DNA of 21,529 nucleotides from a virus: IMG/VR virus record IMGVR_UViG_3300009183_003363, positions 1 to 21,529 of that record. One strand, written 5' to 3'. Positions 32 to 20,296 of this stretch are shown piece by piece. How positions within the stretch are numbered: the first letter of the stretch is position 1; each line of letters opens with the position of its first letter. The notes below the pieces were generated by a model. That model was not told where the DNA came from. It was given only the letters and a program-made list of their open reading frames with translations, and searched no databases. Made by a program: the position numbers and the translations under genes.

Positions 32-955
32 TTATGTTAGTTCTCCTTTTAAATGCTTAATTAAATCCTGCACATATATTCCATCTAATGATGATTCTAA
101 TCGCGGAACACAACACCCTCGTAGTGTATTGTACACCTCTTGATTAAATCCTAATAATCGTTCAAACCCGTGTGTTTTTTTCCTAACTTTAATTTCCGGA
201 TATAATTTTTTTAATATTGCATTTTTACTACTAACAGATGTTAGTTTATAATTAAATTTGTTATTTACCAGCTGTTGAATGTCATTATTAGTTAAATAAT
301 ATAGCATCATTTCAGGGGTATAGCTAAACCATTCATTAACTAATAATATATTATATTTTTCGCTGAACCTAATTGCACTCGCATCTTCATTTTCTCTAAA
401 ACAATGAAACCAGACCGAATCATTATTTGGAAATACTTGTCTTTTTAAAAATTGTTCTCCTCCCATTACTGCAGGAAATCCTAATTTTTTAATATGGTAG
501 TACACCAATAAATAGGTAATTTGTGTACACCCAATTTCTATTGCAAATTCTTCTGCCTCACCTGAGTTATAAAAATTTTTTACATCAAATTCAATAATAT
601 CTAACTTAACATCTAGTAACGTGGTAAGTTCAATTGCCTCACTAACATCATCTATATTGTAATCATCTTTGAATTTTACAATAACACATCTAGGTTTAAA
701 TCCAATCTCTAAAAAATTTCGTAATACAATTTCACTATCTGTTCCACCACTTAGCAAAAGTATCAATTCTCGTCCTGCTTCTCTTAATACTATATCTGCC
801 GTTTTACAAAGTTCTTCACGCCAACTGCTGGTGCGATATACATCCATGTCTGCTTTTCCGGTATATACTTTAAATTTTTCATAAGGTGTGTTTCTATGCC
901 CAAATTTGCGTGAACCTATAGTATAATACAAATGGTTGTCTTTAGTATAATTCAT
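32..955 (-). CDS. PP-loop ATP pyrophosphatase (asparagine-synthase-like domain)
   Basis: The 307-residue protein carries the P-loop signature SGGTDS at residues 69-74, after a hydrophobic beta strand (LILLL). This is the ATP-binding loop of N-type ATP pyrophosphatases, which adenylate a carboxylate or carbonyl and then pass it to an amine or thiol; asparagine synthase C-domains, QueC and related enzymes belong here. No N-terminal glutaminase domain is present, so ammonia or an amine would come from elsewhere. The start is fixed by a 4-base ATGA overlap with the acyl carrier protein gene upstream, so the two are translationally coupled and probably act in one pathway. The substrate cannot be read from the sequence. 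A tRNA-modifying PP-loop enzyme is the main alternative, but the carrier-protein partner argues for small-molecule amide or thioester chemistry. Confidence 0.8.
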   Translation of the reverse strand: MNYTKDNHLYYTIGSRKFGHRNTPYEKFKVYTGKADMDVYRTSSWREELCKTADIVLREAGRELILLLSGGTDSEIVLRNFLEIGFKPRCVIVKFKDDYNIDDVSEAIELTTLLDVKLDIIEFDVKNFYNSGEAEEFAIEIGCTQITYLLVYYHIKKLGFPAVMGGEQFLKRQVFPNNDSVWFHCFRENEDASAIRFSEKYNILLVNEWFSYTPEMMLYYLTNNDIQQLVNNKFNYKLTSVSSKNAILKKLYPEIKVRKKTHGFERLLGFNQEVYNTLRGCCVPRLESSLDGIYVQDLIKHLKGELT

Positions 956-1188
956 TCTATTAAATTAATTAAATCTCGAATGGTAATAATAGCACTACGT
1001 GGCTCGTTTAACACTGTATTTGAATATTCTTCATACATTATTTGCAATTCAATAATATCTAAACTATCTAGATCAATACTCTGTAATATAGTATCTTCGG
1101 TTAGTATTATATTAGATAAGTGGGGATTATCTTTATAAATAAACTGTGATAATATATTTAATTTCTCTTGTCTACTGCTAATTTCCAT
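952..1188 (-). CDS. Acyl carrier protein
   Basis: A 78-residue acidic helical protein with the phosphopantetheine-attachment motif DLDSLDIIEL; the Ser after the second Asp is the modified residue. Length and four-helix pattern match free-standing acyl or peptidyl carrier proteins. The reading frame stays open to an ATG at 1200, but I prefer the ATG at 1188 because a GGAG Shine-Dalgarno lies 6 bases upstream of it. It would hold an acyl or aminoacyl group as a thioester for enzymes encoded nearby. The stop overlaps the start of the PP-loop gene (ATGA). No phosphopantetheinyl transferase is seen, so a host enzyme would have to activate it. It is too small and isolated to be part of an NRPS or PKS module. 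Confidence 0.85.
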   Translation of the reverse strand: MEISSRQEKLNILSQFIYKDNPHLSNIILTEDTILQSIDLDSLDIIELQIMYEEYSNTVLNEPRSAIITIRDLINLIE

Positions 1189-1194
1189 TTTTAA

Positions 1195-1198
1195 CTCC
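1195..1198 (-). promoter_or_regulatory. Shine-Dalgarno deciding the carrier-protein start
   Basis: GGAG followed by 6 bases and ATG at 1188. It overlaps the upstream in-frame ATG at 1200, which has no comparable site, so the shorter 78-residue product is favoured. Confidence 0.5.
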
Positions 1199-1268
1199 AT
1201 ATTAAATATTGGAAGACTTTGGAATTCTTCAATATTAAAACTTTCGGGACATATAAAAGCATTGGCTA

Positions 1269-1283: not shown

Positions 1284-1817
1284 TTATTTTTTTTCTCTTT
1301 GGTATTCTAATACATATTGTAATGTATTATTTATAATTTTTTGACCAATAGGTTTAAAATTCTTATAAATATCTGGCCAGTTTCCGATCTCGTTTTGTGT
1401 TTCATTTCTAACCAGCCACTTGTACATTATCTTGTTATGTTCGTTGCAAGTACCCCAAACTTTCTCAAAAGACATGGTTTCTTGAATCATTATGGGTAAT
1501 ATTGAATTACCAACGATATATTTTGCTCGCATTTCAGGGGCAATAAACATACGAGAAAGAACTAAAGCAACATCGGGAATAGGTTTATAAGGATGCCACC
1601 CGGCACTGCATACATACTTTTCGTTATCGTCTACTACATAGTATGCTCCATCTTTATATCTACCATTCTTCAGCAGGTAAAATATATTAGCCGGATTGTC
1701 GCTCAAGTCCGGATGATAATTTGCAATTATATTTGTATCTGTGATTTTATTAAATCCCTTTTGTAAAATATTAATAACATAGGCGTTAGATAAATCATGT
1801 ATGGTGTGAATCTTCAT
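1284..1817 (-). CDS. GNAT-like acetyltransferase (tentative)
   Basis: 177 residues. The central stretch LSRMFIAPEMRAKYIVGNSILP resembles GNAT motif A, where a beta strand with a conserved pattern precedes the acetyl-CoA pyrophosphate loop, and the later KVWGTCNEHNKIMYKWL resembles the motif B helix (N..M..WL). The glycine-rich Q/RxxGxG/A loop is degenerate, so enzymatic activity is uncertain. The ATG at 1817 has no clear Shine-Dalgarno; a TATAAT at 1846-1851 lies about 29 bases upstream. It may belong to the same pathway as the methyltransferase gene that precedes it in transcription order. A non-catalytic GNAT fold or an unrelated phage protein remains possible. Confidence 0.45.
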   Translation of the reverse strand: MKIHTIHDLSNAYVINILQKGFNKITDTNIIANYHPDLSDNPANIFYLLKNGRYKDGAYYVVDDNEKYVCSAGWHPYKPIPDVALVLSRMFIAPEMRAKYIVGNSILPIMIQETMSFEKVWGTCNEHNKIMYKWLVRNETQNEIGNWPDIYKNFKPIGQKIINNTLQYVLEYQREKK

Positions 1818-1860: not shown

Positions 1861-2400
1861 TTAACTAATTCTAGACCACTCTGCATATAATCGTCTACCA
1901 TCTTGTTCCCAACAACATTCAACTAATTTAAATTTAAACTTAGTACTTAGACGAATATGCTCCTCAATGCTCCAGGGATAAAATTCAATTTGGTCACAGC
2001 CTGAATCAGGATGATCATTTTTTCCTGGATTACAACGCCAATAAATCCTGCATTGCAGGTTTAACAAATCAACAACTTTTTTTATTTGCCTTTCAATGTC
2101 TACTACATTACCAAAATTAATACTACCTAGACATAGTGCCACATCAAATTTTTTGTCAGTGACAAAATCATCTATGGTACATTTGTGATCCGCTTGATCA
2201 AAGGCTGGATCTATCCCGGTTAAATTTGGAATAACGCCCTTAAAGGGATTTGTACCGCACCCCACATCTATAACTGTTTCATGGATGCCTATCTTGTCAA
2301 TAAGTTGTAATCCTGATTTAGTATTCTTCTTGCAAGGGTCGCTATTTGTGTGCCAAATGTTTCCAAAGTATTGATTGAGATAATTTTGATCGACTGGCAT
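1861..2400 (-). CDS. Class I SAM-dependent methyltransferase
   Basis: 179 residues. Motif I is VIDVGCGTNPF at about residues 43-53, the Asp at the end of beta 2 is in GID (64), and the motif IV region FDVALCLGSINF lies at 85-96. These define the SAM-binding Rossmann fold of class I methyltransferases. The late stretch FYPWSIEEHIRL and a C-terminal beta hairpin complete the fold. The substrate is unknown. It is transcribed divergently from the sulfotransferase-like gene, 30 bases away, and lies in the same direction as the GNAT-like and carrier-protein genes. Phages use such enzymes for DNA, capsid or small-molecule methylation; no DNA-methylase NPPY motif is present, so DNA methylation is unlikely. 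Confidence 0.8.
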   Translation of the reverse strand: MPVDQNYLNQYFGNIWHTNSDPCKKNTKSGLQLIDKIGIHETVIDVGCGTNPFKGVIPNLTGIDPAFDQADHKCTIDDFVTDKKFDVALCLGSINFGNVVDIERQIKKVVDLLNLQCRIYWRCNPGKNDHPDSGCDQIEFYPWSIEEHIRLSTKFKFKLVECCWEQDGRRLYAEWSRIS

Positions 2401-2430: not shown

Positions 2431-3027
2431 ATGCTACCTAATAGAATATTTTTTACAGGAGTTCCGGGAAGTCGCTGGAGTGGTATTGCTCAAATCATAG
2501 AGTCTCTAGACAATGTTAATATTAGCGACCGAACTCCCGAGCGTACATATAATCACGGACAATACAGTGGTCATTGTGGCGCCTATTTTGGACTAGGCAT
2601 GGAACTAGAAGCCTATCTAGATGGGCCGTATATTGACAAGGCCTGGACTAACTTAAGTGGTACTAGAATAATCAAAAGCCATGACTGGGCTTATATGTTA
2701 GATTTAGTTAAAGAAAAATTTCCCGACGATTGGATTATGTTAGTATACAGACCTGATATGGCTAGTTATGCCTGGTGGCATGAGGCCGGAGGATTTAAAA
2801 TTAAGTATCCAAACTATATAGCTTACAAAGATAGTACAACAATGTTAGGTGAGATAGCAAAGCAGAATACTGCTATTCTACAATTTGCCCACGATAATAA
2901 TCTAACATGGAATTATTTTACACAAGAATGGATTGCCAAACACTTTGAACAGGATATTGACATGAAAAAAACTTATCCTGATATTTTAGTTACAATATTA
3001 AATAGGAGAAACAATGAAAGTAGTTAA
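2431..3027 (+). CDS. Sulfotransferase-like P-loop protein
   Basis: 198 residues. The N-terminus FFTGVPGSRWSGIAQII (7-23) matches the 5'-phosphosulfate loop of sulfotransferases, where a beta strand leads into a PxSGTTW-like P-loop. RIIKSHDW (79-86) resembles the strand carrying the catalytic K-x-H region, and VYRPDMASYAWWH (105-117) resembles the 3'-phosphate-binding R...S motif. Such enzymes move a sulfuryl group from PAPS to a hydroxyl or amine. It is shorter than the usual 250-300 residues, so it may be a minimal member. No good Shine-Dalgarno is visible. Its 3' end overlaps the TctC gene by 14 bases, so the two plus-strand genes form one unit. Confidence 0.65.
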   Translation: MLPNRIFFTGVPGSRWSGIAQIIESLDNVNISDRTPERTYNHGQYSGHCGAYFGLGMELEAYLDGPYIDKAWTNLSGTRIIKSHDWAYMLDLVKEKFPDDWIMLVYRPDMASYAWWHEAGGFKIKYPNYIAYKDSTTMLGEIAKQNTAILQFAHDNNLTWNYFTQEWIAKHFEQDIDMKKTYPDILVTILNRRNNESS

Positions 3028-3976
3028 ATTTTTAGCAGTAGTATTATTGTCATTTTCGGCTCATGCTTGGGAGCCAACAAAGCCGATAACCGCAGTAATC
3101 GGCTTTGCCCCGGGATCTGGTAATGAATTAAGTTTTAGAGGATTTAGCAGTTTAATTGAAAAAGTTAATCCTAAAATTAATTTCATCGTAGAGAATAAAC
3201 CCGGAGGGGATGGCACAATTGGAATGAACCATTTTATAAAACTACCCAATGATGGGTATCATATATACATTGCTAGTCACCAAGGTACATGGGTAACTTC
3301 TGACTATGTTAATCCTGAAATTAAAAAATATACATTAGCTGACTTTGAATATGGATTAACGTTGGCAAAAAGTCCGTTGGCTATTATTGCACACGAAAGT
3401 AGTCCAACTAATACTCCCAAAGAATTTATAGATCGTATGAAAAATTCTACCACTCCTATTAGCATTGCTGCTGGTAGCGGGGCACATAAACTTGCATATG
3501 AATATATGATGTATCATATCAAAGGAAACAAATCTTTAATTAAAACAATTCCTTATAAGGGACCTGCACAAGCAGGGCAAGATGTTGCAGGTAATCATTT
3601 AGAATTTGGTATTATTCCGGTAACTGTTGCTAATGTATTAGTTAAATCCGACAAAGTTAAAATTATTGCACTGACTAGTGAATATAAACTAGAGGGTCTT
3701 AAAGATGTGCCTTTGATGAAAGACTATGTTCCCGGCATGAATGTATATGCTGCCTGGGGAATTGTATTTCCTAAAGGAACACCCAAGGAAATTATTGATT
3801 GGTATGTTGTGCAGTTTAGAAACGCTATTAACAGTCCGTTCGGTAAACAATTTATCAAAGACAATTTAATGTTCGCAGAACCCAAAGAGCAAGATCCTAA
3901 AGGATTTGAAGCAAGTATGATGGAATTGAGAACTAAATGGATTCCTATTATCAAAGAAGTTGGGTGGAGTAATTAA
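3014..3976 (+). CDS. TctC/Bug family periplasmic solute-binding protein
   Basis: 320 residues. A Sec signal peptide is visible (positively charged start, hydrophobic core, AHA cleavage site near residue 18). The mature protein shows Bug hallmarks: ENKPGGDGTIG, then PNDGYHIYIAS, a central SIAAGSGAHKLAYEY ligand loop, YKGPAQAGQDVAGNHLEFG, and the C-terminal GIVFPKGTPKEIIDWY block. Bug proteins bind carboxylated metabolites in the periplasm for tripartite tricarboxylate transporters (TctABC) or as sensors. No TctA or TctB membrane subunit is encoded here, so it would have to load host transporters. The start is supported by AGGAG seven bases upstream of ATG. Full length with no frameshift, so it is likely functional. 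It is an unusual phage cargo gene and points to a proteobacterial, probably Burkholderiales, origin. Confidence 0.9.
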   Translation: MKVVKFLAVVLLSFSAHAWEPTKPITAVIGFAPGSGNELSFRGFSSLIEKVNPKINFIVENKPGGDGTIGMNHFIKLPNDGYHIYIASHQGTWVTSDYVNPEIKKYTLADFEYGLTLAKSPLAIIAHESSPTNTPKEFIDRMKNSTTPISIAAGSGAHKLAYEYMMYHIKGNKSLIKTIPYKGPAQAGQDVAGNHLEFGIIPVTVANVLVKSDKVKIIALTSEYKLEGLKDVPLMKDYVPGMNVYAAWGIVFPKGTPKEIIDWYVVQFRNAINSPFGKQFIKDNLMFAEPKEQDPKGFEASMMELRTKWIPIIKEVGWSN

Positions 3977-4001: not shown

Positions 4002-4607
4002 TCAGCTTTTAGGTAATGTAAAGTACCAAATAGATGTTTTTGGAATAATTGTTACCTTTTGTTTAAGAAAATCTTCCATATATTCCACATTTAAATTTAC
4101 ATCAGGAAAACTCCCATCAGAGTGAACATCTTCACACCAATCGTGACCTAAGAACATACCACCGGGTTTAATTTTAGGTAACCAAAAATCAATGTTGTCC
4201 TTATCATTTGGATTTGTATGTGATGCATCTAAAAATATAAAATCTATAGGGGTTGACCAATCTTGAACTATTTGCGGGCTATATCCACAAATAGGTATGA
4301 TATTTTTTTGTGATTCTGTATTTTTTACAAAAGTTTCTAATGTGTTAACATTATCAGGTCCTGGTCTTTTATGTTTAGCTATGAACTCATCACTATAGGC
4401 ACTTTCATAAGTTACACTACCGTCCCATTTATCTATGCAATATAAAGTACCTTTATTAATTGCAATAGATATAGCAATACTACTACGTCCGTGCAAACAC
4501 CCTACTTCTACTCCCACACATTCAGAATAGTTATATTTGTATAATAATTTCATTATTTCTAGTTGTTGTCGTCCGGAGAAATAACCAGGTACATCATTTA
4601 TGTTCAT
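4002..4607 (-). CDS. Class I SAM methyltransferase (Methyltransf_24/TylF-like)
   Basis: 201 residues. Motif I is CVGVEVGCLHGRSSIAI (30-46), the acidic residue after beta 2 is in YCIDKWDG (56-63), and the segment IDFIFLDASH (121-130) followed by WLPKIKPGGMFLGHDW (142-157) is typical of the Methyltransf_24 group, which acts on small molecules or sugars; some members bind a metal through the D and H residues of these motifs. It is the last gene of the nine-gene operon, 17 bases after the kinase-like gene. It converges with the TctC gene, leaving 25 bases with no obvious terminator. Substrate unknown. Confidence 0.8.
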   Translation of the reverse strand: MNINDVPGYFSGRQQLEIMKLLYKYNYSECVGVEVGCLHGRSSIAISIAINKGTLYCIDKWDGSVTYESAYSDEFIAKHKRPGPDNVNTLETFVKNTESQKNIIPICGYSPQIVQDWSTPIDFIFLDASHTNPNDKDNIDFWLPKIKPGGMFLGHDWCEDVHSDGSFPDVNLNVEYMEDFLKQKVTIIPKTSIWYFTLPKS

Positions 4608-4624
4608 TTAAATTATCCGAATTT

Positions 4625-5185
4625 TTATAATAGTGATTCTAGTTTACAAATTAACTCAGGGTCAATCTTACTGATCCATTCTTTTATACTATGCCGTTCT
4701 AAGTCAATATTTTGTGTATTCCTAGTAACTGCATATTTAAAATCAAAACACATAAGTTGACCGTTTTTTCCAGTCAAATTACACATGGCATTATTTAATT
4801 TATACATATTATGTTGTTTAAAAAATTTAAACATATGTTCTATTTGTTCTGTTATATTAGGAAAGACAATATTTAAATCCTCGCGAGGATATTGTAATAA
4901 ATCCGGGCCCGGCCATTCTTGTAAAATATAATATCCAAATTGATCGTCTAATTTACCATGTTCATATGTTTTTACTAATAGCTCTGATTTTAATTTTGTA
5001 GACCAATATATTTCATTTTTAAAAAGTTTGTCAATTTCTTCTATGGTATTATGCACCGGAGGTCGATTTTGAATAGTATTGCCGTTAATTTTATAGTATT
5101 TTTTTACTAATTTTGCGTTTTTGTCTATCCATACTTCGGCTAAACTTCCCCTAGATCCATGAACTGAATGATATCGTTCAAACAT
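4625..5185 (-). CDS. Protein-kinase-fold protein, probable pseudokinase
   Basis: 186 residues from the ATG at 5185; a TTG at 5197 is in frame but the ATG gives a tight 8-base overlap with the gene upstream. The small lobe shows a Gly/Ser-rich loop (HGSRGSLAEVW), a Lys pair in LVKKYY (28-29) at the VAIK position, and a Glu in NEIYWSTKL (58) at the helix C position. A hinge follows (YYILQEWPGPDLL). In the catalytic loop KLNNAMCN the Asp of the HxDxxxxN pattern is replaced by Asn (131) while the second Asn (136) is kept; FDFK stands where DFG is expected. A phosphotransferase fold is likely, but classic kinase catalysis is doubtful. Alternatives are a divergent LPS or aminoglycoside kinase relative. 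Confidence 0.6.
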   Translation of the reverse strand: MFERYHSVHGSRGSLAEVWIDKNAKLVKKYYKINGNTIQNRPPVHNTIEEIDKLFKNEIYWSTKLKSELLVKTYEHGKLDDQFGYYILQEWPGPDLLQYPREDLNIVFPNITEQIEHMFKFFKQHNMYKLNNAMCNLTGKNGQLMCFDFKYAVTRNTQNIDLERHSIKEWISKIDPELICKLESLL

Positions 5186-5915
5186 ATAAATTATCAATAA
5201 TCTCTGTGTAATACGCTTCTAAAATATCTGTCACGTATGAGATTTTATCTGCATTAAAATCTGCTTTGAGTTGATTAGCTAGCCAAGACAATATCGCTGC
5301 TGTGTCTTTGTTTGATAATAATGTATAAAAATCAAAATATTCTGTTACAGGTTTATTGTTGAATTTCTTCAATGATGAGTTCCAAAATATATCAGGCAAT
5401 GGATAACATATTTTACACCTAGTACTTTGATATAAATTCGCTATCTCTGTTTTTGGAATTAATGAAATACATCTAATTTTATATCCAAGAGCTTGCATTT
5501 CTTTAAAAGGAATAGTTTTATCCCAAGAATGGATTCCGTATAATATTCTATAATTTTTCATTTGATAATTAGAATTTTCGTAAAATTTTAATTTAGTATT
5601 TCCCCAATTCCACTGTTGTTGACCAGCCAACAAGTGTGTTCCTAAAAATTCAAAAAATTGAATATAGTCATTTATATCAGTTGGTTCACACCGGTCTAAA
5701 AACCAATTAGTAATTCTTTTTGGTACAATTATGTCATATGCTATCTCTCTGGAAGATTTATGAGAATTGATAGGAATATCAGATAAAATTTTAGTATTAG
5801 TATAATCTAATTTAATATCTAACTCTGACCAAATACGCATAAGAAGTTGACCGGATCCGCCGGGCAAATAGTCGACCAATATTAATTCATTATTTGTTAA
5901 AAATGGATATTTCAT
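5178..5915 (-). CDS. Unrecognised operon protein, possible P-loop/sulfotransferase-like
   Basis: 245 residues, not confidently recognised. The N-terminus LILVDYLPGGSGQLLMRIW (11-29) has a beta strand followed by a Gly/Ser loop and helix, which resembles the start of sulfotransferase-like or other P-loop phage proteins. A later strand YKIRCISLIPKTEIANLY could hold the 3'-phosphate-binding element, but the key Arg and Ser pattern is not clear. Two Cys occur in CKICYP. The start ATG overlaps the stop of the radical SAM gene (ATGA), and its stop overlaps the kinase-like gene, so it is an integral member of the operon. No membrane segment or signal peptide is visible. Confidence 0.65.
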   Translation of the reverse strand: MKYPFLTNNELILVDYLPGGSGQLLMRIWSELDIKLDYTNTKILSDIPINSHKSSREIAYDIIVPKRITNWFLDRCEPTDINDYIQFFEFLGTHLLAGQQQWNWGNTKLKFYENSNYQMKNYRILYGIHSWDKTIPFKEMQALGYKIRCISLIPKTEIANLYQSTRCKICYPLPDIFWNSSLKKFNNKPVTEYFDFYTLLSNKDTAAILSWLANQLKADFNADKISYVTDILEAYYTEIIDNLYV

Positions 5916-6886
5916 TGTTTTGTTTTAGTAGTTAAAAGATCATGAAAGCACTCGCAGGTAACTTTATTACAAATAACTGCATTATTAGAAAAATTATACT
6001 TAAGATCGTCAACATGACCAATCGGGCCAGTGACTCCGCATACCGATCTGTTAATAGTCTGGAAGTTAATGTCTAAGAAATCTTTTCCTACCTGACATTC
6101 CCATCCTAAAAATTTATTCCATTCATTTTTCATAAGGTGTTGAACGTTAATATTTTTTGTAATTCCTAAATTATTAGTTACTAATAATTCAGCACCTAAC
6201 CGTAACTTATTTGGGATAGGGGATTTTTTTTTAATATTTGTTAGTATTCCAGGTTTATAACTAGCGTGTTTAATAATAGATAGTTCTTCCTCTGAGTATA
6301 AATCATATATATCATATTCGTTAATATTCATTCCTTTAATATCAATTATTCCACCAGTGTTGTTTATTAAATAATTAAATGCGTTAATTGCTTGAGGAAT
6401 ATTATCTTTAGTATGTGTAACTTCACATACTGTTTCAGTTTCAAAATTAAGAAATAAATTCATTATATCAGCAATATTATTATAATCAACCGTTTGTTCA
6501 GCATGATATGTCAATGCTAGACGAGTTAGTATATTATCAATTTTGGCCAATTCTTTCCACCAGCGCATTGTTCTAGAACCATTACTTGCTAATATATTCC
6601 AAGCACCTTTATTTTTTGAATACTGTAATAACTCTATTAAATCAGGATATAATGTAGGTTCACCTCCAGTATAAACAATATAAAAAGGAGTTCCTGCGCA
6701 GGCTTCAACAATTTTATCAACTATCAATTTATACTTTTCTAAGGAAAGCCACCGTTCATTCCCGCTATTATTTCCTTTACTACAAAAACTGCACGAGTAA
6801 TTGCATACATCATGTAGTTTCCAGTTAATTACTTTAAATGGTTGGGGGACTGCTCTTTTAACGTGAATTGGATATACATTATTCAT
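5912..6886 (-). CDS. Radical SAM enzyme with C-terminal Cys cluster
   Basis: 324 residues from the ATG at 6886, chosen over an in-frame ATG at 6910 because it gives the ATGA overlap used repeatedly in this operon. The 4Fe-4S motif CNYSCSFC (Cys 28, 32, 35) coordinates the cluster that cleaves SAM to a 5'-deoxyadenosyl radical. GGEPT (74-78) is the SAM-amino-group motif. The C-terminal third holds five more cysteines (264, 283, 306, 311, 313), suggesting an auxiliary Fe-S cluster as in SPASM or Twitch enzymes that modify peptides or small molecules. It lies between a PLP enzyme and an unknown protein. Substrate unknown; a QueE-like role is less likely because of the length and the C-terminal cysteines. 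Confidence 0.88.
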   Translation of the reverse strand: MNNVYPIHVKRAVPQPFKVINWKLHDVCNYSCSFCSKGNNSGNERWLSLEKYKLIVDKIVEACAGTPFYIVYTGGEPTLYPDLIELLQYSKNKGAWNILASNGSRTMRWWKELAKIDNILTRLALTYHAEQTVDYNNIADIMNLFLNFETETVCEVTHTKDNIPQAINAFNYLINNTGGIIDIKGMNINEYDIYDLYSEEELSIIKHASYKPGILTNIKKKSPIPNKLRLGAELLVTNNLGITKNINVQHLMKNEWNKFLGWECQVGKDFLDINFQTINRSVCGVTGPIGHVDDLKYNFSNNAVICNKVTCECFHDLLTTKTKQ

Positions 6887-7653
6887 AGTTTTAATAGATG
6901 ACTTATGCATAACCGATTGACTGGACCTCGTTTAAAATTTACATATTTCGTAGAGTAATCTAATCCAAATATTATGGTGTTAGACGGGGTAATATTAAAT
7001 TCTTGACAAATCTCTAATTGAGAATCTTTATATTTTTGTATCATTGAGTCCGGAGACATTGTATCTAATAACGTATAATGGTGCTCGGCACAGGCTACTA
7101 GTGGATAATGCCATTGCGAATATACGGTTACTGGATACGGGTCTATGGTATACAATAATCCAACTCTATGTAACCCTGTGCCAAAAGATTTAGATAATGA
7201 AAAGCAAACACTGTGTATATTTTTATACCTAGCAAAATCAAAATCTATATCGTGACATACTCCAAAAAAAGCACAGTCAATAAATATGGGTTTATTATGA
7301 GAATCTGCAATTTTAATTTTTTCATGTGAACTCATCCCGTCAGCACTAAATGGATGACTTACTACTATTGCATCTGCTTCGTCTAAATTAAAAGTAACAC
7401 GATTTTTAATAACCAACGAATGATAGCCATATTCACCTTCAAATATTCCTATCTTATTATACATTCCATACATTTGATTAAATGCATCAGTAACACCTGA
7501 TACAATATAATATGATTTGGGCAATCCTTTTACTAGTTGATTGGATGAGTGAACCCATTTATTAAATTTTTCTTTAAATTTAATAAATTGAGATATATCT
7601 ACTGATTCTGGCTCTATTGCAATTGCTGCATTTGTTATTTTATCAAATCTCAT
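6883..7653 (-). CDS. Compact fold-type-I PLP enzyme (aminotransferase-like)
   Basis: 256 residues. The Schiff-base region FSLSKSFGTGLHRVG (151-165) holds the PLP-binding Lys155 and the following Arg, exactly as in class I/II aminotransferases (SxSKxxGxxGxRxG). FIDCAFFG (124-131) carries the Asp (126) that contacts the pyridine nitrogen; VSGVTDAF (51-58) corresponds to the phosphate-cup helix start; EYGYH matches the aromatic stacking segment. The enzyme is about 100-150 residues shorter than typical relatives: the N-terminal arm and much of the C-terminal small domain are reduced, although RLCIS near the end may preserve the carboxylate-binding Arg. It is likely to transaminate or otherwise transform an amino-acid-like intermediate in this pathway. 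Overlaps both neighbours by ATGA. Confidence 0.82.
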   Translation of the reverse strand: MRFDKITNAAIAIEPESVDISQFIKFKEKFNKWVHSSNQLVKGLPKSYYIVSGVTDAFNQMYGMYNKIGIFEGEYGYHSLVIKNRVTFNLDEADAIVVSHPFSADGMSSHEKIKIADSHNKPIFIDCAFFGVCHDIDFDFARYKNIHSVCFSLSKSFGTGLHRVGLLYTIDPYPVTVYSQWHYPLVACAEHHYTLLDTMSPDSMIQKYKDSQLEICQEFNITPSNTIIFGLDYSTKYVNFKRGPVNRLCISHLLKL

Positions 7654-8129
7654 ACTACTATACCAATTAAATGTAATCTAGGTTTATTAGAACAATTCAT
7701 AAACGTATGTAAGTTAACTGTGTTAGTCCAATATACTAAGCCTGCATGCATATGTTGAATAATTCCCTGTTTAAAAACAAAATAACATTCTGGATTAGTA
7801 ATCATAGGAATATGGATCCGAGGGGTAGAATCTTTGTGCATACTATAACAGGACCAGGGACTTAGCCACATAAGTCTAGTTCTAAATAAATTATACTTAT
7901 TAATTACTTCTTCAAATACAGTATCTTTAAAAATTGGGTTTAGATTAGTATATATTAGTTCATCACCCTTGCTCGTTCCAACAGCACTAGCCCACGGATC
8001 TTCTAGATCCTTAAATTGTAGCCCGACTTGTTTCTTGCTGCCGTAATCTGTCCATATAAGATTTTTTTCAATCTTAAAATAGCAGTCTAATATCTCAGTA
8101 ATAGGACATGTTTCAATAATCTTTATCAT
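7650..8129 (-). CDS. 2-oxoglutarate/Fe(II) dioxygenase, Asp/Asn beta-hydroxylase-like
   Basis: 159 residues. The double-stranded beta-helix signature is visible: HKD (98-100) as the HxD iron ligands, a distal His141 (NLHTF) and Arg151 (KPRLHL) ten residues later for the 2-oxoglutarate carboxylate. The segment RIHIPMITNPECYFVF and WTNTVNLHTFMN matches aspartyl/asparaginyl beta-hydroxylase-like oxygenases. It would hydroxylate an amino-acid side chain or small molecule using oxygen and 2-oxoglutarate. ATGA overlaps with the radical SAM gene upstream and the PLP enzyme gene downstream tie it to the operon. Family assignment is strong, substrate unknown. Confidence 0.82.
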   Translation of the reverse strand: MIKIIETCPITEILDCYFKIEKNLIWTDYGSKKQVGLQFKDLEDPWASAVGTSKGDELIYTNLNPIFKDTVFEEVINKYNLFRTRLMWLSPWSCYSMHKDSTPRIHIPMITNPECYFVFKQGIIQHMHAGLVYWTNTVNLHTFMNCSNKPRLHLIGIVV

Positions 8130-9670
8130 ACAGTATTTACTTTGACAATTTCAGCATCACGTTTTAACATAGTTAACAAATTTGGAAAATATTCAGTAGT
8201 TGGATCTTTGATAATATTTGTTTCTGAATAGTGTCTACGAAAATTATTTACAGTGGATAATTTTATTTTATTTTGTATATTAGTATTTAATGCTTTCGCT
8301 ATTGCATTTGATTGAATAAAACTTGTTATGTCAGAATCATCATTTTTAGTCCACTGTCCAATATGCATATTTTCTTTTGTAATTACATATCCGTATTTTT
8401 CATATGATCTTTCTAGTTCACTTGTAGGTTTATTTGGGTAAAGTTCCGGTGGGGTTATAATTAACGGGAAATAAAATATATCATGAACCGGGCAGTCTGG
8501 TTGCATAAACCAAGCATGACTCTTACATATATCTGCATAGGCTTCATGCGGGAGTCCAATAATATATCCTCCCTGAACACGTACCTGATCTCCCCATATT
8601 TTTTGTACATGATATAAAGCCTGTTTACGTTTTTCTGAATCCATACCTTTACCAATTACCTTAGCACTTTTGGGATGAAAAGTTTCAATACCAACGAATA
8701 CTGTGTTTACACCAATATCTAATAACAATTGCGCTTGTTCTGGATGCGTTACTATTAGATCAATACGTATATAACATCTAAATTTTGGTTTAAACGGTAA
8801 TAGCTTTACAACTTCAGCTACGCATTTTAATTTTTCAGTTGAATCATTAAAAGTGTCATCTGCTATCCAATAATCCGTAATTCCCCATTTTGTGTAATTA
8901 TCTAATAGTTCTGTATAAAGCGACTTTGATTCTTTGACATATTTTGCTATATCTTTTTTTCCTATTAACGGCCATGCACAAAATAAACAGGAAAACCGAC
9001 AGCCCCGCGCAATTTCTATAGTCATTAGTTCATCACTACGAATTTGATCATATTTAGTATAACTTGTAAAACTTTCTACCCATCCCCAGTTTTTACTCTC
9101 AGCAGAGCTATCATGATTAATTAAAGTATTCCAAATACGCTTTGGTTGTTGTAAAAAATCTAATATCTGCACCTCGCCATATCCTGCCATGAAATGATCC
9201 GCTGGAAAATCTGCATACCAATCTATTTTAACACCTCCTAGAAGTATTTTAGTTTTTGAATTGTATTTTTTTACAAGATCAACCCAAGGCTTTGCTTTGC
9301 CTAAGAATGCAGATTCGGTGAGTGTGTTCTGACCATTGTTCCCAAACATTGCTCTAACCCGACGCACCTCTTCAGGGTCATGCGATCCATTAGAGGGAAT
9401 AGGAAGTTGATTGCCTGTTTTATTTCTATAAGGCCACCAGCTAGAGCTAAAACCCACAAATCTAGTATCGGGACCTATTGAGACCTTAAGAATTTCTTCC
9501 CAGATATGGATATTAAGTGCCGAAGAAAAATCAATTACTAATACCGAATATCCGTTTTCTCTAAGATGTGTAGCTATTCTGTGTGCGCCGTGTCCTCTGA
9601 CCCATTCTGGATAGTCTGAGGTATCGTTGACAATTATTGCATTAAAGTTATTAGTAGGTACGTTTATCAT
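8126..9670 (-). CDS. B12-binding-domain radical SAM protein
   Basis: 514 residues. The first about 190 residues look like a cobalamin-binding Rossmann domain of the BATS group (WVRGHGAHRIATHLRENGY, then VLVIDF, FVGFSSSW, ILLGGVKID); the DxHxxG cobalt-ligand motif is not seen, which is common in this group. The radical SAM core begins with EIARGCRFSCLFC (Cys 224, 228, 231), followed by WIADDTFN and VFVGIETF, typical of MiaB/Elp3-like BATS enzymes. Such proteins perform methylations, methylthiolations or ring rearrangements. It starts one base after the preceding stop and ends in an ATGA overlap with the oxygenase gene. Largest enzyme of the operon. Substrate unknown. Confidence 0.88.
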   Translation of the reverse strand: MINVPTNNFNAIIVNDTSDYPEWVRGHGAHRIATHLRENGYSVLVIDFSSALNIHIWEEILKVSIGPDTRFVGFSSSWWPYRNKTGNQLPIPSNGSHDPEEVRRVRAMFGNNGQNTLTESAFLGKAKPWVDLVKKYNSKTKILLGGVKIDWYADFPADHFMAGYGEVQILDFLQQPKRIWNTLINHDSSAESKNWGWVESFTSYTKYDQIRSDELMTIEIARGCRFSCLFCAWPLIGKKDIAKYVKESKSLYTELLDNYTKWGITDYWIADDTFNDSTEKLKCVAEVVKLLPFKPKFRCYIRIDLIVTHPEQAQLLLDIGVNTVFVGIETFHPKSAKVIGKGMDSEKRKQALYHVQKIWGDQVRVQGGYIIGLPHEAYADICKSHAWFMQPDCPVHDIFYFPLIITPPELYPNKPTSELERSYEKYGYVITKENMHIGQWTKNDDSDITSFIQSNAIAKALNTNIQNKIKLSTVNNFRRHYSETNIIKDPTTEYFPNLLTMLKRDAEIVKVNTV

Positions 9671-9671
9671 A

Positions 9672-10517
9672 TTAATATATTTTCCAACCTATTATTGTAG
9701 TGTCCGGCATTAATAATTCTTGATACATTGTGTTATTTTCAACTTCAACATCGTTTATTTTTATTAATGTTCCTATTGGAATATATCCTATGGCCAGTCT
9801 AGGGTCTTCTATTTTGTATGGCCAAGCGAGTTTACTATCATAATAAAAATTAGTAAATTTTTTCCAGTCTAATGTAAATTTAGAAAATCGCAAGGTATGA
9901 TATGGTGATATTCTATATTGTGGTACAATTTGTTCAACAGGACAATTGACATCGTTATTTAAATATAATTCAAGTGGATGCCTTCCTACATGACAATAAT
10001 GTAGCATTAAATCTCCAATATTTCTGTTTGGAGTAAAATATTTAAAATCTTCAATAGATATTAACTCATTCAATTCATTATAAATGTCAGGGCATATCAA
10101 AATGTAACTAAAATTTTTATTAAATTTTTTTGCAACATTTAACGTTTCTAATTCATGTATCAAATCATTGTATGTTGATAGTTGTTCTAACCTACTAGTG
10201 TCCGTTTCTGATTTTTCAAGTTCTGGAAAATGAATATGTAAACGGTTTAAATTGTTTGCTATTGTATCATCATTGCTGAACGTAATTATTTTAGTTGGTA
10301 TCCACATGTTCATTTTTTCAATTAACTGTATTAGTTCATTAATTTTATCTTCTATATTATTAATAGCACGAATTGGATTTAAACTTTTTCGTAGTTGATT
10401 TACATTGCAATTGTTTATTAACTTAGCCCAAGTTTGCGCAGGTTTATGCGTGTATACTTTATACGTTAGTTTTTTAATATCCGGAGTGCATAATGTAATT
10501 TCATAAAAAGAATACAT
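9672..10517 (-). CDS. Unrecognised protein of the biosynthetic-like operon
   Basis: 281 residues, no family recognised. It is soluble-looking, with no signal peptide or membrane segment. Distinct features are a predicted helical first half (ELIQLIEKMN...), a conserved-looking segment SNDDTIANNLNRLHIHFPELE at about 91-111, and an aromatic-rich second half (HTLRFSKFTLDWKKFTNFYYDSKLAWPY). The C-terminal part has short beta-rich stretches with GYIPIGTLIKINDVEV. It is separated by one base from the methyltransferase gene upstream and one base from the radical SAM gene downstream, so co-translation with pathway enzymes is very likely. Function not assigned. Confidence 0.75.
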   Translation of the reverse strand: MYSFYEITLCTPDIKKLTYKVYTHKPAQTWAKLINNCNVNQLRKSLNPIRAINNIEDKINELIQLIEKMNMWIPTKIITFSNDDTIANNLNRLHIHFPELEKSETDTSRLEQLSTYNDLIHELETLNVAKKFNKNFSYILICPDIYNELNELISIEDFKYFTPNRNIGDLMLHYCHVGRHPLELYLNNDVNCPVEQIVPQYRISPYHTLRFSKFTLDWKKFTNFYYDSKLAWPYKIEDPRLAIGYIPIGTLIKINDVEVENNTMYQELLMPDTTIIGWKIY

Positions 10518-10518
10518 A

Positions 10519-11064
10519 CTATTTAATTCCTATTACCATGTACCGCGTAAAGCTCCATGTGTTATAGTTGAACTCAATTTCTCCGGTGTATTCATACCCC
10601 GATAACGGAAACCGTTGTTTAAAATTATCTAGCGATGTAGAAATAGTGACTTCTTCCCCTTCATGAACTAGGTTATTACCTTGCAGTATGACACGTTTTC
10701 CGGATGGAATATTATTCCACCAGTCCATTGACGGGAAATGTTCAGTTGCAGTGTTGATGATTAAATCTGGTTCGTCTGGAATTAACAAATTACAATCCAA
10801 TGTATGCGCTCTGAACACCTCTGATTGACAAATCCAATTGTCATTAATCATCTCTGCTATATCCTTGCATGACGGATCAACATCATAAGAGTGAATGCGC
10901 TTAACATTAAATTTATCCCTACTTAGCAGTAGAAATGCTGCTAGACCATACCAGCCACCATATATCCATGTTAAGTTAGATGCCCAATTAAGTTTTTCTA
11001 ATTCCTGACATAACCATAGCTTACTGCGTATTTGACCATGAGTGAATGCATAGGTTTTGTTCAT
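10519..11064 (-). CDS. Class I SAM methyltransferase-like protein
   Basis: 181 residues. The strand-loop-helix LTWIYGGWYGLAAFLLLSR (31-49) is a SAM-binding motif I with a GxxxG pattern, followed by RIHSYDVDPSCKDIA (57-71), where the Asp pair marks the ribose-binding acidic residue. DLIINTATEHFPSMDWW (80-96) fits the motif IV region with an ATEH in place of more usual residues. It is the first gene of the nine-gene operon, 16 bases after rubredoxin, with no strong Shine-Dalgarno. It might be read through from the rubrerythrin-rubredoxin genes. Substrate unknown. Confidence 0.68.
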   Translation of the reverse strand: MNKTYAFTHGQIRSKLWLCQELEKLNWASNLTWIYGGWYGLAAFLLLSRDKFNVKRIHSYDVDPSCKDIAEMINDNWICQSEVFRAHTLDCNLLIPDEPDLIINTATEHFPSMDWWNNIPSGKRVILQGNNLVHEGEEVTISTSLDNFKQRFPLSGYEYTGEIEFNYNTWSFTRYMVIGIK

Positions 11065-11080
11065 TTTGTACGTACCGTGA

Positions 11081-11212
11081 TTAACTTACCAATTCATAAT
11101 CTTCTTTACCACATCCGCATTCAGGACAAACATGATCGTCGGGAAGTTGTTCCCATTTACCTTCTACTGTTTCATCGTGGATATGACCACATACTACACA
11201 TACATGTTCCAT
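11081..11212 (-). CDS. Miniature rubredoxin
   Basis: A 43-residue reading frame. It has two rubredoxin knuckles, CVVCGHIHDE (5-14) and CPECGCGKEDYE (29-40), and the LPDDHVCP stretch typical of rubredoxins (LPDDWVCP). Four Cys (5, 8, 29, 32) would bind one iron. The spacing between the knuckles is 20 residues against about 29 in classic rubredoxin, so the middle loop is shortened. It starts one base after the rubrerythrin stop, with GAGGAG as Shine-Dalgarno inside that gene. It is probably the electron donor to rubrerythrin, whose usual fused rubredoxin domain is absent here. Confidence 0.88.
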   Translation of the reverse strand: MEHVCVVCGHIHDETVEGKWEQLPDDHVCPECGCGKEDYELVS

Positions 11213-11213
11213 T

Positions 11214-11663
11214 TTACATCTCCTCTAATTTTTGTTGGTACGCTTGTGCGTGGCGTTTTTCAATTTTAGCTAATGCACTAAAACGTTTTTCTGCTTTAGT
11301 CAATAATTCTTTGAATTCTTCGGCATGTTCTTTGCTTTCGGCAATTTGCATATTAGCTTCATTTGCAAAAACTAATTCTCCTTCAAATTCAGCCGTTTCT
11401 TTGAAGTTTGGATACATAATCTCAAACTCATATGTCTCACCGTCAATTGCCATTTGCAAGCATTCTTTGGTAGTAGGCTTCTTAATCATTAACTCCAAGT
11501 GACCCCAAGCATGTAGAATCTCTTGGGCTGCGGTGTGTTCAAAATGTTTTGCAATTTCTTCATTGCCTTCTTCTCGGGCAATCTTTGCAAAATACCGATA
11601 TTTGGTATGTGCTTGTGACTCGCCGGCAAATGCGTCGGCTAAGTTTTGCAATGTTTGTGACAT
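11214..11663 (-). CDS. Rubrerythrin (diiron domain only)
   Basis: 149 residues forming a ferritin-like four-helix bundle. Diiron ligands can be read as Glu15 (AGESQAH), E48xxH51 (QEILHAW), acidic residues in the third helix region (YEFEIMYP, EFEGE) and E135xxH138 (KIEKRHAQAY). Rubrerythrins reduce hydrogen peroxide with electrons from rubredoxin. The usual C-terminal rubredoxin domain (family length about 190) is missing; a separate rubredoxin gene follows one base later. AGGAG precedes the ATG, and a late-promoter-like element lies upstream. It is likely to protect phage or host iron enzymes such as the nearby Fe-S proteins and the RNR from oxidative damage during infection. Confidence 0.9.
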   Translation of the reverse strand: MSQTLQNLADAFAGESQAHTKYRYFAKIAREEGNEEIAKHFEHTAAQEILHAWGHLELMIKKPTTKECLQMAIDGETYEFEIMYPNFKETAEFEGELVFANEANMQIAESKEHAEEFKELLTKAEKRFSALAKIEKRHAQAYQQKLEEM

Positions 11664-11996: not shown

Positions 11997-12377
11997 TTAA
12001 TGCTTTTTTCTATAATCTTCTACCGCGGCTTTGATGGCATCTTCGGCGAGGATGGAGCAGTGAATTTTAACTGGGGGGAGGGCGAGGTGTTCGGCGATGG
12101 TTGAGTTCGTGATGGTGCTAGCTTCATCCAATGTTTTACCCTTGACCCACTCTGTGACAAGACTTGAACTAGCAATTGCCGACCCACACCCATATGTCTT
12201 AAATTTGGCATCTGTGATTAACCCCGTTTCTTTATCTACTTTAATTTGCAGTTTCATCAGGTCTCCGCACGCCGGAGCACCTACTAATCCTGTACCTACA
12301 TTTTCTTCGGCTTTGGAAAAACTTCCTGCATTGCGGGGGTTTTCATAATGATCTAAAACTTGTTTACTGTAGGACAT
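11997..12377 (-). CDS. iscU: IscU iron-sulfur cluster scaffold
   Basis: 126 residues, full length. All IscU hallmarks are present: Cys37 and Asp39 in APACGD, Cys64 in YGCGSAIASSS, the HscA-binding motif LPPVK (100-104) and His106-Cys107 in KIHCSILAED. IscU builds 2Fe-2S clusters on the IscS desulfurase and hands them on with chaperones. The rest of the Isc machinery is not here, so host IscS and HscAB would be needed. It reads almost like a beta/gamma-proteobacterial host gene. A strong Shine-Dalgarno (AGGAGA) precedes the ATG. The 3' third of the gene is markedly GC-rich (56% G+C at 12021-12120 by hand count) while the 5' part and flanks are AT-rich, suggesting recent capture or recombination. 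Confidence 0.95.
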   Translation of the reverse strand: MSYSKQVLDHYENPRNAGSFSKAEENVGTGLVGAPACGDLMKLQIKVDKETGLITDAKFKTYGCGSAIASSSLVTEWVKGKTLDEASTITNSTIAEHLALPPVKIHCSILAEDAIKAAVEDYRKKH

Positions 12378-13539: not shown

Positions 13540-13553
13540 ATAGTTTGGTTAAT
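13531..13553 (-). terminator. Stem-loop at the end of the virion-protein operon
   Basis: ATTAACCAAA and TTTGGTTAAT are exact inverted copies around a 3-base loop, a 10-base stem. The stop codon of the virion-protein gene sits inside the stem. The stem is AT-rich and no clean U-tract follows, so as an intrinsic terminator it would be weak; it may also protect the message 3' end. Confidence 0.4.
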
Positions 13554-14874
13554 TTACCCAGCAGTCACAATTGCATGTGATTACTTGTTCAATTGCTTGT
13601 GCAACTGAAATTGATGATGGTAACAACGATGAAATAAATGATGGATTGGCTGGATTTAGTGCCGGTGGAATTAGATTAGTATAAGGTGATCCTGCTAAAC
13701 TTCCCGGAACGATAGGCCCACCGGGCACCCCAAAATCAAAGAACGGACCAGTGATAGCTAATTGGCTTATGCCCAATGTACCAATTCCTATATCGGGTCC
13801 GGGAACCCCAGCCAATACTGCTGCAACACTGGAATTTGGCGGAGTAATGATAGTATTAACCACAGTGGTTACATCGGGAATATTATCGTCAATTGCTATT
13901 CCAACTTCTGCTAACCTAACTTGGTTTCTTTCTGCTCTCATTGCAGCAACAATACTTTGACCAGCAACAAGAGTTAAATTAGAGATAGCTTCTAAGTTTT
14001 GTGCAGCCAAATTTGGTGCAGTTAGTATAGCATAGTTAGGTAATAAATCTGTAAAACTATAAATCATCAATGGGTAGGGAAACAAATCACCATTCCTACC
14101 AGAAATTCTGGGTGAGGGTATTGCTGCCAACCCAGTGTCTCTTGCTAGTTGCTCACTAGCTAATTGTGTAGCAGTGGCACTATACAAATCATTTAGTTCA
14201 GATGCTTGTTCTGGGTTCGTTGTGCGTATTGTTGCTATTTCAGCATTAGCTAAATCTATCTGAGCTTGCACCGCAGCATCTAACCCCAACGAAGGACCCT
14301 GTGTTGCTGTATACAGATTACTATAAATTGTTGGTAGATTTCCAGTTGGCATGTTAGATATTGCATTCTGCAAATTAGCCCAATCATATGGTAATCCTGA
14401 CATACAGCCAAAAAAGTCTGAGAACGTATATAAATTGTTAGTTCCGGTGCCCAGTGCCACTAAAGATAATGCAGCCTGTGCTTCTGCTGCATCGGTGGGT
14501 ATATTAGTACCATTAGTTAATGGTAGACCTTCAGTAGTCTCTAAGCTAGCAACTACTTGTGCAAATTTTTCTATATCAATTTTTCTTATATTATTTACTT
14601 GTTGCATTGTTGCACTAAACGCGCCAGCAGCAGTAGCGATATCACTAGGTAATATACCATCTAGATATGATCCAAATCCTTCAGATAAAATTTGTAAATT
14701 AACCGGAATAATCGTATTAGCAGTAGTAGAATTATTAACAATTGTAGTTGAAGTGGTATTCGTATTGGCAGTAACATTAAATGCATCACCAGTGGTACTT
14801 GTTCCAGGATTTCCAAAAGAATAGCTACTAGTGCTTCCGTCAAGCAATGATAAGAAATTATTTACTGTTGTCAT
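13549..14874 (-). CDS. Probable virion structural protein
   Basis: 441 residues, not matched to a named family. Composition is typical of phage tail or baseplate proteins: a Thr/Asn/Ser-rich N-terminus (TSTTGDAFNVTANTNTTSTT), Ala/Leu-rich helical middle (AAVQAQIDLANAEIATI; ASELNDLYSATATQLASEQLA), and Pro/Gly-rich C-terminal third, ending in CNCDCWVN with three closely spaced Cys. It follows 12 bases after another large probable structural gene and the PAAR spike-tip gene, so a baseplate or tail-tip role is likely. No catalytic motif is visible. The start ATG is preceded by AT-rich sequence without a strong Shine-Dalgarno. Confidence 0.65.
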   Translation of the reverse strand: MTTVNNFLSLLDGSTSSYSFGNPGTSTTGDAFNVTANTNTTSTTIVNNSTTANTIIPVNLQILSEGFGSYLDGILPSDIATAAGAFSATMQQVNNIRKIDIEKFAQVVASLETTEGLPLTNGTNIPTDAAEAQAALSLVALGTGTNNLYTFSDFFGCMSGLPYDWANLQNAISNMPTGNLPTIYSNLYTATQGPSLGLDAAVQAQIDLANAEIATIRTTNPEQASELNDLYSATATQLASEQLARDTGLAAIPSPRISGRNGDLFPYPLMIYSFTDLLPNYAILTAPNLAAQNLEAISNLTLVAGQSIVAAMRAERNQVRLAEVGIAIDDNIPDVTTVVNTIITPPNSSVAAVLAGVPGPDIGIGTLGISQLAITGPFFDFGVPGGPIVPGSLAGSPYTNLIPPALNPANPSFISSLLPSSISVAQAIEQVITCNCDCWVN

Positions 14875-14886: not shown

Positions 14887-16107
14887 TTATTGATATCCAC
14901 TACCACTACCACCACCACCGGAATCGCCGCCGGCAGAATCACCACCGCCAAAATTGCCGCCACCAGAATCACCGGATTCAGCAGCACTGCGCCAGCCAAC
15001 CTCGTTTACTGTAACTACTGGTGGCGCCGGTGGGATAATTGTTCCAACTACTGCTTTTATTGCAGGGGCAGTCAATGCAGGGGCTACCGTTGTGACAGTA
15101 TATATAGGATAATATGTTTTACTATTAGTTGGTCCCGGTACTGCATTATAGATAGGAACAGTTAATGTTAAATAACTTTCAGGGAACATCTTCTTAACAT
15201 TCAGTAAATCAGCCAATGTTACTAATCCATTGGTGTTGCAATTTAATGCTACTAATATTGTAGCTAAATCTATACCTGCAATTACTAAAAAGGCAGAATA
15301 AACTTTTTGCTGTTGATCTTTAGATACATTCGTATTATTTGCTATTTGATTTATCTCATCACTGGTCAATCCAGTAGACAATAATGCCACAGCCAATGAG
15401 GGAGTTAATGCATTATATTTTTTAAGAGTTGCTAATAGATTAGAAGGGTAGCCAAATGTCCATATCGTAGATAAGTCTAATGCTTTACCTAGATTGATTA
15501 AATCTTTACCAAATACACCAGTTGACAAACTTATCCCAGTAACATCAGCCGTGATTAAATCATTCATGTTACTGTATGTACCATCTAAGAATGTCAATGA
15601 ATTATACATTGCTGTAATTGATTGATTGGAATACTCAATAAATGATCCAGCACTAATGAATGATCCTACAAAGTCATTGTACATTCCAGAAAGTGCTAGT
15701 GTATTATTATAATTAAATTCATAATATGCTTGTAGTGGAAATAGTCTAACATATCCATAACTGGCATTTTCACCTGTATAAGCAATGTTGTAGCTTTCAC
15801 TTTGAACATAATTAGGAGGGATACTATTACCCAATGCAGGAATAGTTGAACTTCCCATAGATATAAGATTGTTATAAGTGGTTAAACTTAAATCACCTGC
15901 GTTGTATCTAACCCAACCCTGACGCATAGCGTTTGTTGCATTGTTTAATACTGTGTTTGATATTATAGTACCGTAAGTGTAATTATTAGCACCAGTACTA
16001 GAACCAACAATATTAGCTGTGGGTTGATTAATCCAAAAGCCTTTGCCTTGGAGTAAACCACTCATTACGTTAACGCCTAACGGGCTTTGTTTTCCTGTAT
16101 TGCTCAT
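14887..16107 (-). CDS. Probable tail/baseplate structural protein with Gly-rich tail
   Basis: 406 residues. The N-terminus MSNTGKQSPLGVNVMSGLLQ and the IPALGNSIPPNY segment near residue 100 are, in my recollection, features of a myophage structural protein encoded next to the PAAR tip. The middle is rich in Asn, Tyr and Thr. The last 27 or so residues are almost entirely Gly, Ser and Asp (GDSGGGNFGGGDSAGG...), a flexible low-complexity tail. The ATG overlaps the PAAR stop (TAATG), so the two are translationally coupled and likely made in comparable amounts. Baseplate hub association is inferred. Confidence 0.65.
   Translation of the reverse strand: MSNTGKQSPLGVNVMSGLLQGKGFWINQPTANIVGSSTGANNYTYGTIISNTVLNNATNAMRQGWVRYNAGDLSLTTYNNLISMGSSTIPALGNSIPPNYVQSESYNIAYTGENASYGYVRLFPLQAYYEFNYNNTLALSGMYNDFVGSFISAGSFIEYSNQSITAMYNSLTFLDGTYSNMNDLITADVTGISLSTGVFGKDLINLGKALDLSTIWTFGYPSNLLATLKKYNALTPSLAVALLSTGLTSDEINQIANNTNVSKDQQQKVYSAFLVIAGIDLATILVALNCNTNGLVTLADLLNVKKMFPESYLTLTVPIYNAVPGPTNSKTYYPIYTVTTVAPALTAPAIKAVVGTIIPPAPPVVTVNEVGWRSAAESGDSGGGNFGGGDSAGGDSGGGGSGSGYQ
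14896..14980 (-). repeat. GC-rich degenerate repeats coding the Gly/Ser/Asp tail
   Basis: Short imperfect units such as GAATCACCACCGCC and GAATCGCCGCCGGC (plus strand) recur through this stretch, coding GDSGGG-like units. It is one of the few GC-rich islands in the window and could expand or contract by slippage. Confidence 0.6.
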
Positions 16108-18025: not shown

Positions 18026-18247
18026 TTATTGCCCTTTAATCTGTTCTCGTTTTTCACGATATTCTTGATATAGTTCAATTTCTTTCATGTTGACTAAATG
18101 TCCTTCAGCAGTAATATGATTTTTCAACATACCCTCACTGAGCCATTGCAATCTTTGTTTGAATTCTTCCAAATTTGCACATTTCATATACTCATATGTA
18201 TTCATGAGTTCTTTTCTTAGTGCTGCTAATTTTTGTTGTTTACTCAT
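18026..18247 (-). CDS. Small helical protein between nrdA and nrdB
   Basis: 73 residues from the ATG at 18247; a TTG at 18265 is in frame but the ATG forms an ATGA overlap with the nrdA stop and has GAGG upstream. The protein is helical and charged (QQKLAALRKELMNTYEYMKCANLEEFKQRLQWLSEGM, then EIELYQEYREKREQ), probably two or three helices or a short coiled coil. I recognise no family. Its place between the two RNR subunit genes, with no gap on either side, suggests co-expression, and it could be an RNR-associated or unrelated small phage protein. Confidence 0.7.
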   Translation of the reverse strand: MSKQQKLAALRKELMNTYEYMKCANLEEFKQRLQWLSEGMLKNHITAEGHLVNMKEIELYQEYREKREQIKGQ

Positions 18248-20264: not shown

Positions 20265-20296
20265 ATAATTTCCTTATATGTATTTATGCTTGGTAA

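Follow-up and report, generated by a model that had tools for sequence, protein, structure and literature searches.

Does a run of overlapping phage genes for radical and oxidative enzymes encode one biosynthetic pathway, and which of these genes belong to it? The question is raised by an operon at positions 4,002 to 11,064 of IMG/VR virus record IMGVR_UViG_3300009183_003363, from an uncultured, T4-like, aquatic phage. The whole 21.5-kb record (21,529 nucleotides) is the window analyzed here, and coordinates are window positions. We lettered the operon genes A to I and numbered homologous IMG/VR loci or phage records L001, L002 and so on; families were called with Pfam and NCBIfam profile models at their curated cut-offs. 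Since all records are fragments, gene absences are soft. The original prediction described nine genes head to tail on one strand, and we found all nine open reading frames (ORFs) at the positions it gave. The cassette and the genes in and around it, in order of transcription, are as follows (SAM, S-adenosylmethionine; PLP, pyridoxal phosphate).

4620..10533, minus strand: seven-gene cassette B-H, which moves as a unit (single blastn block shared with L001).
10519..11064, minus strand: A, Rossmann-type methyltransferase-like, flanking (from alignment; no Pfam match; absent beside B in L001).
9672..10517, minus strand: B, 281 residues, no family match; homologues in L001-L003, L012 (25%) and L172 (46%).
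8126..9670, minus strand: C, radical SAM protein, putatively of the B12 type (PF04055, 1.1e-13; CX3CX2C at residues 224-231).
7650..8129, minus strand: D, predicted Fe(II)/2-oxoglutarate beta-hydroxylase of the Cpz10 type (H98, D100, H141, R151).
6883..7653, minus strand: E, compact putative PLP enzyme of 256 residues, histidinol-phosphate-aminotransferase-like (D126, K155, R163, R247).
5912..6910, minus strand: F, radical SAM protein with extra C-terminal SPASM/twitch-like cysteines (PF04055, 2.7e-12; start at 6886 or 6910).
5178..5915, minus strand: G, tentatively a divergent P-loop/sulfotransferase-like protein (PGxSGQLL motif read by hand on the alignment; no Pfam match).
4625..5185, minus strand: H, protein-kinase-like fold (weak profile match to kinases; no Pfam match).
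4002..4607, minus strand: I, methyltransferase (Methyltransf_24, PF13578, 3.6e-16), flanking and variable.

Comparing the window with L001 by blastn, we found one block of 5,916 bp at 92.2% identity (window 4620-10533), which reaches from 16 nt upstream of the B start codon to 5 nt beyond the H stop codon. Outside this block the two phages share nothing at that place; by reading, L001 has nucleoside diphosphate (NDP)-sugar dehydratase-like and glycosyltransferase-like genes on one side and an apparent tRNA array on the other. Hence, A and I are neighbors rather than members, and the conserved mobile unit is B-H, not A-I. In keeping with its variable position, I is absent beside the cassette in L001 and L003 and adjoins A and D in L166. 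The claim that tight coupling means one pathway is partly supported: a single functional unit on a phage, with seven genes in place of nine.

The computed junctions are close throughout. A/B and B/C are separated by 1 nt each (positions 10518 and 9671) and H/I by 17 nt; C/D (8126-8129), D/E (7650-7653) and F/G (5912-5915) overlap by 4 nt, and G/H by 8 nt (5178-5185). The gaps and the 8-nt overlap agree with the original prediction, as do three of its four ATGA overlaps; the fourth, at 6883, requires F to begin at its internal ATG (6886), the E/F overlap being 28 nt from the upstream ATG at 6910. The B-H junctions are identical in L001, and the A-I junctions are nearly so in L002. Sigma-70-like and TATAAATA promoter sites were no more frequent than chance, and a search of Rfam gave no match.

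Synonymous divergence (dS) relative to L002 is 0.30-0.40 for B, E, F, G and H, 0.67 for C, 1.08 for D and 2.2 for A, and is saturated for IscU. Hence, the history of the cassette differs from that of its surroundings, and D and part of C differ too. The ratio of nonsynonymous to synonymous divergence (dN/dS) is 0.12-0.23 for A-H and 0.46 for I, so the A-H proteins are maintained by purifying selection and I is held more loosely.

The spread of the genes was followed in relatives. With C as the query, IMG/VR yielded three close loci and a distant one, and no relative of C, B, G or H was found in INPHARED. Since starting from operon genes would bias a co-occurrence sample, we picked 50 whole related records by the C-terminal CNCDCW tag of the window gene g13549, ignoring the operon genes. 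E is present in 4 records, all with D (p 5.5e-4; dereplicated p 0.0023), and B and H share the same 3 records (p 5e-5; dereplicated p 0.001); the E-B association has p 0.003 after near-identical records are merged. These dereplicated associations rest on two or three lineages. Core D occurs in 9 records (10 with a weak one), C in 12 and A in 25, the last with no association to E, B or H. The island gene g05 is found in 4 records, each also carrying D, and PP-loop genes in 16.

Single records show the same company in altered order. In L043, a phage of the same clade, D-E-H lie together with an inverted G, and a homologue of B (46%) is located some 9 kb away from G on the same record; C and F are missing from the part available. 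In L044, a different phage, E-G-H and a D-like gene (D') stand together with two C homologues, a class III aminotransferase, and PP-loop and SPASM-type proteins. Relatives of A, B, C, D and F are present in L012, D and E adjoin in L022, and A-I-D-E adjoin in L166. Thus B, D, E, G and H keep company in lineages whose gene order has changed, and homologues scattered singly with no co-occurrence are mostly not what is seen for this core. The nine-gene unit itself fared worse, given the distribution of A, the loss of I in L003 and the solitary copies of C elsewhere.

The enzyme calls of the original prediction were borne out by Pfam for C and F (radical SAM) and I (methyltransferase); D and E match their families below the cut-off or weakly, and A and H have no Pfam match. 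The C motif reads CRFSCLFC, and its cysteines are invariant in five homologues. Against the B12-binding model PF02310, C scores 0.0026 (18 bits versus a cut-off of 32.1), and a related L044 protein reaches 21 bits; it also matches NCBIfam B12-type radical SAM families. The F homologue in L004 has a similar C-terminal cysteine pattern. Since the family matches of C and F are all far under curated cut-offs, no reaction was assigned to either. The N-terminal radical SAM core of F scores best against viperin and prokaryotic viperin models; we rejected F as a viperin because it reaches 51.7 bits versus an NCBIfam cut-off of 180, matches over about 107 residues and has different C-terminal cysteines. 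A defense function was not supported by PADLOC.

D falls just under the cut-off of Pfam Asp_Arg_Hydrox (1.7e-4), and its profile matches Cpz10 (PDB 7V4F, 7V4M-P) at E = 1.5e-19. H98, D100, H141 and R151 align with H115, D117, H160 and R170 of Cpz10, so that the HxD...H facial triad and the conserved Arg are kept. From the chemistry of the family, D is predicted to be a Cpz10-type beta-hydroxylase that would act on an amino-acid-bearing small molecule. E matches Aminotran_1_2 weakly (0.022), and its profile matches PDB 1H1C at E 9.7e-5 over a stretch of about 100 residues. K155 (the PLP lysine), D126 (pyridine-binding), the G53/T55 phosphate loop and R247 (the arginine for the substrate carboxylate) are invariant in 12 homologues, and the cofactor site is complete; at 256 residues, E is short of the two-domain HisC-like length of about 335-350.

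The remaining core proteins are more divergent. For G, the PGxSGQLL motif and the strand order suggest a divergent P-loop sulfotransferase; its AlphaFold model is poor (pLDDT 51), and Foldseek gave only insignificant sulfotransferase-fold matches. The model of B is also poor (pLDDT 38). H retains the kinase-like fold that had been predicted, although the catalytic Asp is replaced in all six homologues aligned (HxD to KxN, in KxNxAxxN, and DFG to DFK), and it is unlikely to work as a normal kinase.

Taken together, the B-H genes are inherited jointly, run in one direction, overlap, evolve under purifying selection and have moved as one block. We consider it about an even chance (roughly 0.5) that this horizontally exchanged phage cassette encodes one tailoring pathway for a small amino-acid-derived compound or substituent. 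In such a pathway, D would hydroxylate the beta-carbon of an amino-acid moiety, E would exchange or remove an amino or carboxyl group with PLP, and C would add a methyl group or rearrange carbon via cobalamin and SAM, with F supplying a second radical step. G might transfer a sulfo-type group, and H might bind a nucleotide or substrate without normal kinase catalysis. The substrate would perhaps be held on a carrier protein or nucleotide.

Several points weigh against this reading. C stands alone in the corresponding slot of several relatives (L010, L014-L017), and C, A and D are each found without the others. B and G have no recognized family or usable structure model. With the full core confined to three or four independent lineages, the co-occurrence statistics depend on a small number of events, and the records are fragmentary. 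The chemistry is uncertain, being drawn from superfamily membership, above all for C and F.

Beside the operon lies a wider island.

3014..3976, plus strand: TctC-type periplasmic solute-binding protein (PF03401, 3.4e-26).
2431..3027, plus strand: g05, sulfotransferase-like P-loop protein (motif reading on the alignment).
1861..2400, minus strand: g04, methyltransferase-like (PF13489, weak).
1284..1817, minus strand: g03, GNAT-like by reading; followed by carrier-protein and PP-loop genes in L101, L108 and the phage of L001.
952..1200, minus strand: g02, putative acyl/peptidyl carrier protein with a DSLD motif (L101 homologue matches PP-binding PF00550 at 6.8e-4, just under cut-off).
32..955, minus strand: g01, putative PP-loop ATPase, asparagine-synthase/QueC-like, with SGGTDSE (from alignment; L101 homologue matches Asn_synthase/QueC weakly).

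The genes g01 and g02 overlap by 4 nt. The phage of L001 has g04-g05-TctC (81/74/76%) and g03-carrier-PP-loop (47/49/57%) as two further blocks at two other loci, along with a desaturase-like gene, a SPASM-type protein and an E paralogue. Since the same blocks are scattered in that phage and contiguous in the window, they suggest one shared system, as seen in two phages only; PP-loop genes are common in the clade. Less certainly than for the core, these blocks (PP-loop ligase, carrier protein, GNAT, methyltransferases and g05) would supply activated building blocks or finishing steps, and TctC would import substrate. The start of TctC is signal-peptide-like; its gene adjoins g05 in close relatives, and a distant TctC (21%) is found in L167. 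At L182 11918-13598, in the phage of L001, a second, diverged E (33%) stands beside a second g05 (43%).

Upstream of the operon are, by reading, an interrupted nrdA, nrdB, glutaredoxin, PAAR and SleB-like hydrolase genes, and by family match IscU and rubrerythrin. One small ORF lies between the rubrerythrin gene and A.

11081..11212, minus strand: rubredoxin-like ORF of 43 residues (from translation), 16 nt before A.

Because this ORF is so close to A, the unit may begin further upstream. The rubredoxin-rubrerythrin pair and IscU lie just upstream of the operon (11081-11663 and 11997-12377); IscU is a general feature of the clade, joined by an IscA-like gene in relatives such as L022. The phage IscU and rubrerythrin/rubredoxin could support iron-sulfur enzymes.

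Other features were seen in the window and its relatives. The sampling tag belongs to g13549 (13549-14874), a fast-evolving protein with an invariant C-terminal CNCDCW, found at the ORF end in 77 of 80 IMG/VR loci among the matches listed; this hallmark of the clade is possibly a metal-binding tip. The adjoining protein (14887-16107) ends in a glycine-rich GSGSGYQ, a tail shared with L002 and L003. Across 18244-21529, nrdA appears to be fractured and to contain a split intein: its N-terminal part ends intein-like (SNLCCVTGDTQ) and is followed by an HNH-type endonuclease ORF (19329-20264) and then by the C-terminal part, which starts with an intein C-half (ILVHN then CEILLPTKS). In relatives such as L014 and L047, nrdA is uninterrupted. 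The T4-like phage contigs L004 (1-12347), L012 (1-16623) and L044 (1-12561) carry several SPASM-type radical SAM genes in tandem together with PP-loop and 2-oxoglutarate (2OG) oxygenase genes, and a similar series in Campylobacter phage CPt10 (L009) includes an amidinotransferase and a short PLP gene.

If the cassette product were instead an unusual sugar or lipid substituent for host lipopolysaccharide (LPS) or virion glycans, as in the LPS-type clusters of marine T4-like phages, the sugar-related genes beside the cassette in L001 would fit. So would Pelagibacter phage Mosig EXVC030M and uncultured kin, where epimerase, sugar-aminotransferase-like, carbamoyltransferase, desaturase and tail-fiber genes surround the relatives of E, D and A. 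The Mosig cluster (54-75 kb) has an E homologue (27%) beside an Asp_Arg_Hydrox gene and also methyltransferase, GNAT, desaturase and further oxygenase genes, with a closer D homologue elsewhere in the genome; its TauD-like neighbor best matches other dioxygenases. It differs from the window in that no relative of B, C, G or H was found there and in that it adjoins tail-fiber genes. We regard such surface decoration as rather unlikely, given that no glycosyltransferase or sugar-nucleotide gene was recognized within B-H or the window and that, among solved proteins, D is closest to a small-molecule hydroxylase.

That hydroxylase, Cpz10, beta-hydroxylates an amino-acid-bearing uridine in caprazamycin biosynthesis (PMC9814697). 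The alignment of D with it spans 125 residues and keeps the Fe ligands and the Arg, and caprazamycin/liposidomycin-type Streptomyces clusters (PMC9814697) likewise contain 2OG oxygenases together with kinase-like proteins and further tailoring enzymes. In contrast to those clusters, the phage set has a HisC-like E rather than a transaldolase and adds two radical SAM enzymes as well as B and G. A pair of UMP (uridine monophosphate) dioxygenase and threonine transaldolase was not recognized among the window ORFs and family matches, no dedicated search being made and contigs being fragmentary. A first scan for cellular D homologues found none; a motif scan of about 85,000 species (one genome per species) gave one, in Streptomyces massasporeus, near a sulfotransferase-like ORF. 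It is unlikely that a lytic phage encodes and exchanges every step toward a new natural product derived from an amino acid, possibly nucleoside-antibiotic-like and made during infection against competitors or for host control.

The genes might also share no pathway, being modular cargo that gathers in a hypervariable slot and is kept separately. The slot downstream of IscU is filled by very different genes in relatives, and the solitary copies of C, like the presence of A in half of the clade records, fit such an island. We think this reading distinctly unlikely, since the B-H block was transferred exactly, its overlaps are conserved, and B, D, E, G and H are co-retained despite rearrangement.

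The enzyme classes overlap with those of proteusin-type ribosomally synthesized and post-translationally modified peptides (RiPPs), so the two radical SAM enzymes, beta-hydroxylase and methyltransferases could act on a genetically encoded peptide or virion protein. C and F resemble RiPP radical SAM families weakly, with every score far below the cut-off, but no precursor ORF fits in the operon (gaps of 1-17 nt), and the sole small upstream ORF is the rubredoxin-like one; we give this reading little credence. The C-terminal CNCDCW of g13549 was considered as a RiPP-like substrate and rejected, as it is clade-wide and mostly occurs without the operon. Hypermodification of DNA bases, known from phages in which radical SAM and PLP enzymes attach amino-acid-derived groups to thymidine, is very improbable here: the enzyme classes resemble thymidine hypermodification pathways, but the cassette is patchy within the clade, and pyrophosphorylase and 5-hydroxymethyldeoxyuridine kinase genes were not recognized in the window (whole genomes were not searched for them).

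Phage auxiliary metabolism and LPS-like clusters are already known, and the auxiliary metabolic genes of a phage usually number one or a few. The auxiliary biosynthesis genes of T4-like aquatic phages (LPS-type clusters; viral alaS, PMC11480375) also sit in variable islands, whereas a coupled radical SAM/B12/PLP/2OG set is not reported in the papers found. No described equivalent was found in the open-access literature searched, in agreement with the original prediction that the operon matches no known pathway. The intact movement of a seven-gene radical SAM/B12/PLP/oxygenase cassette between phages implies that its product is selected for. Confirmation would provide new radical enzymes with a natural, testable context and would broaden phage metabolism to include the dedicated synthesis of small molecules in several steps.

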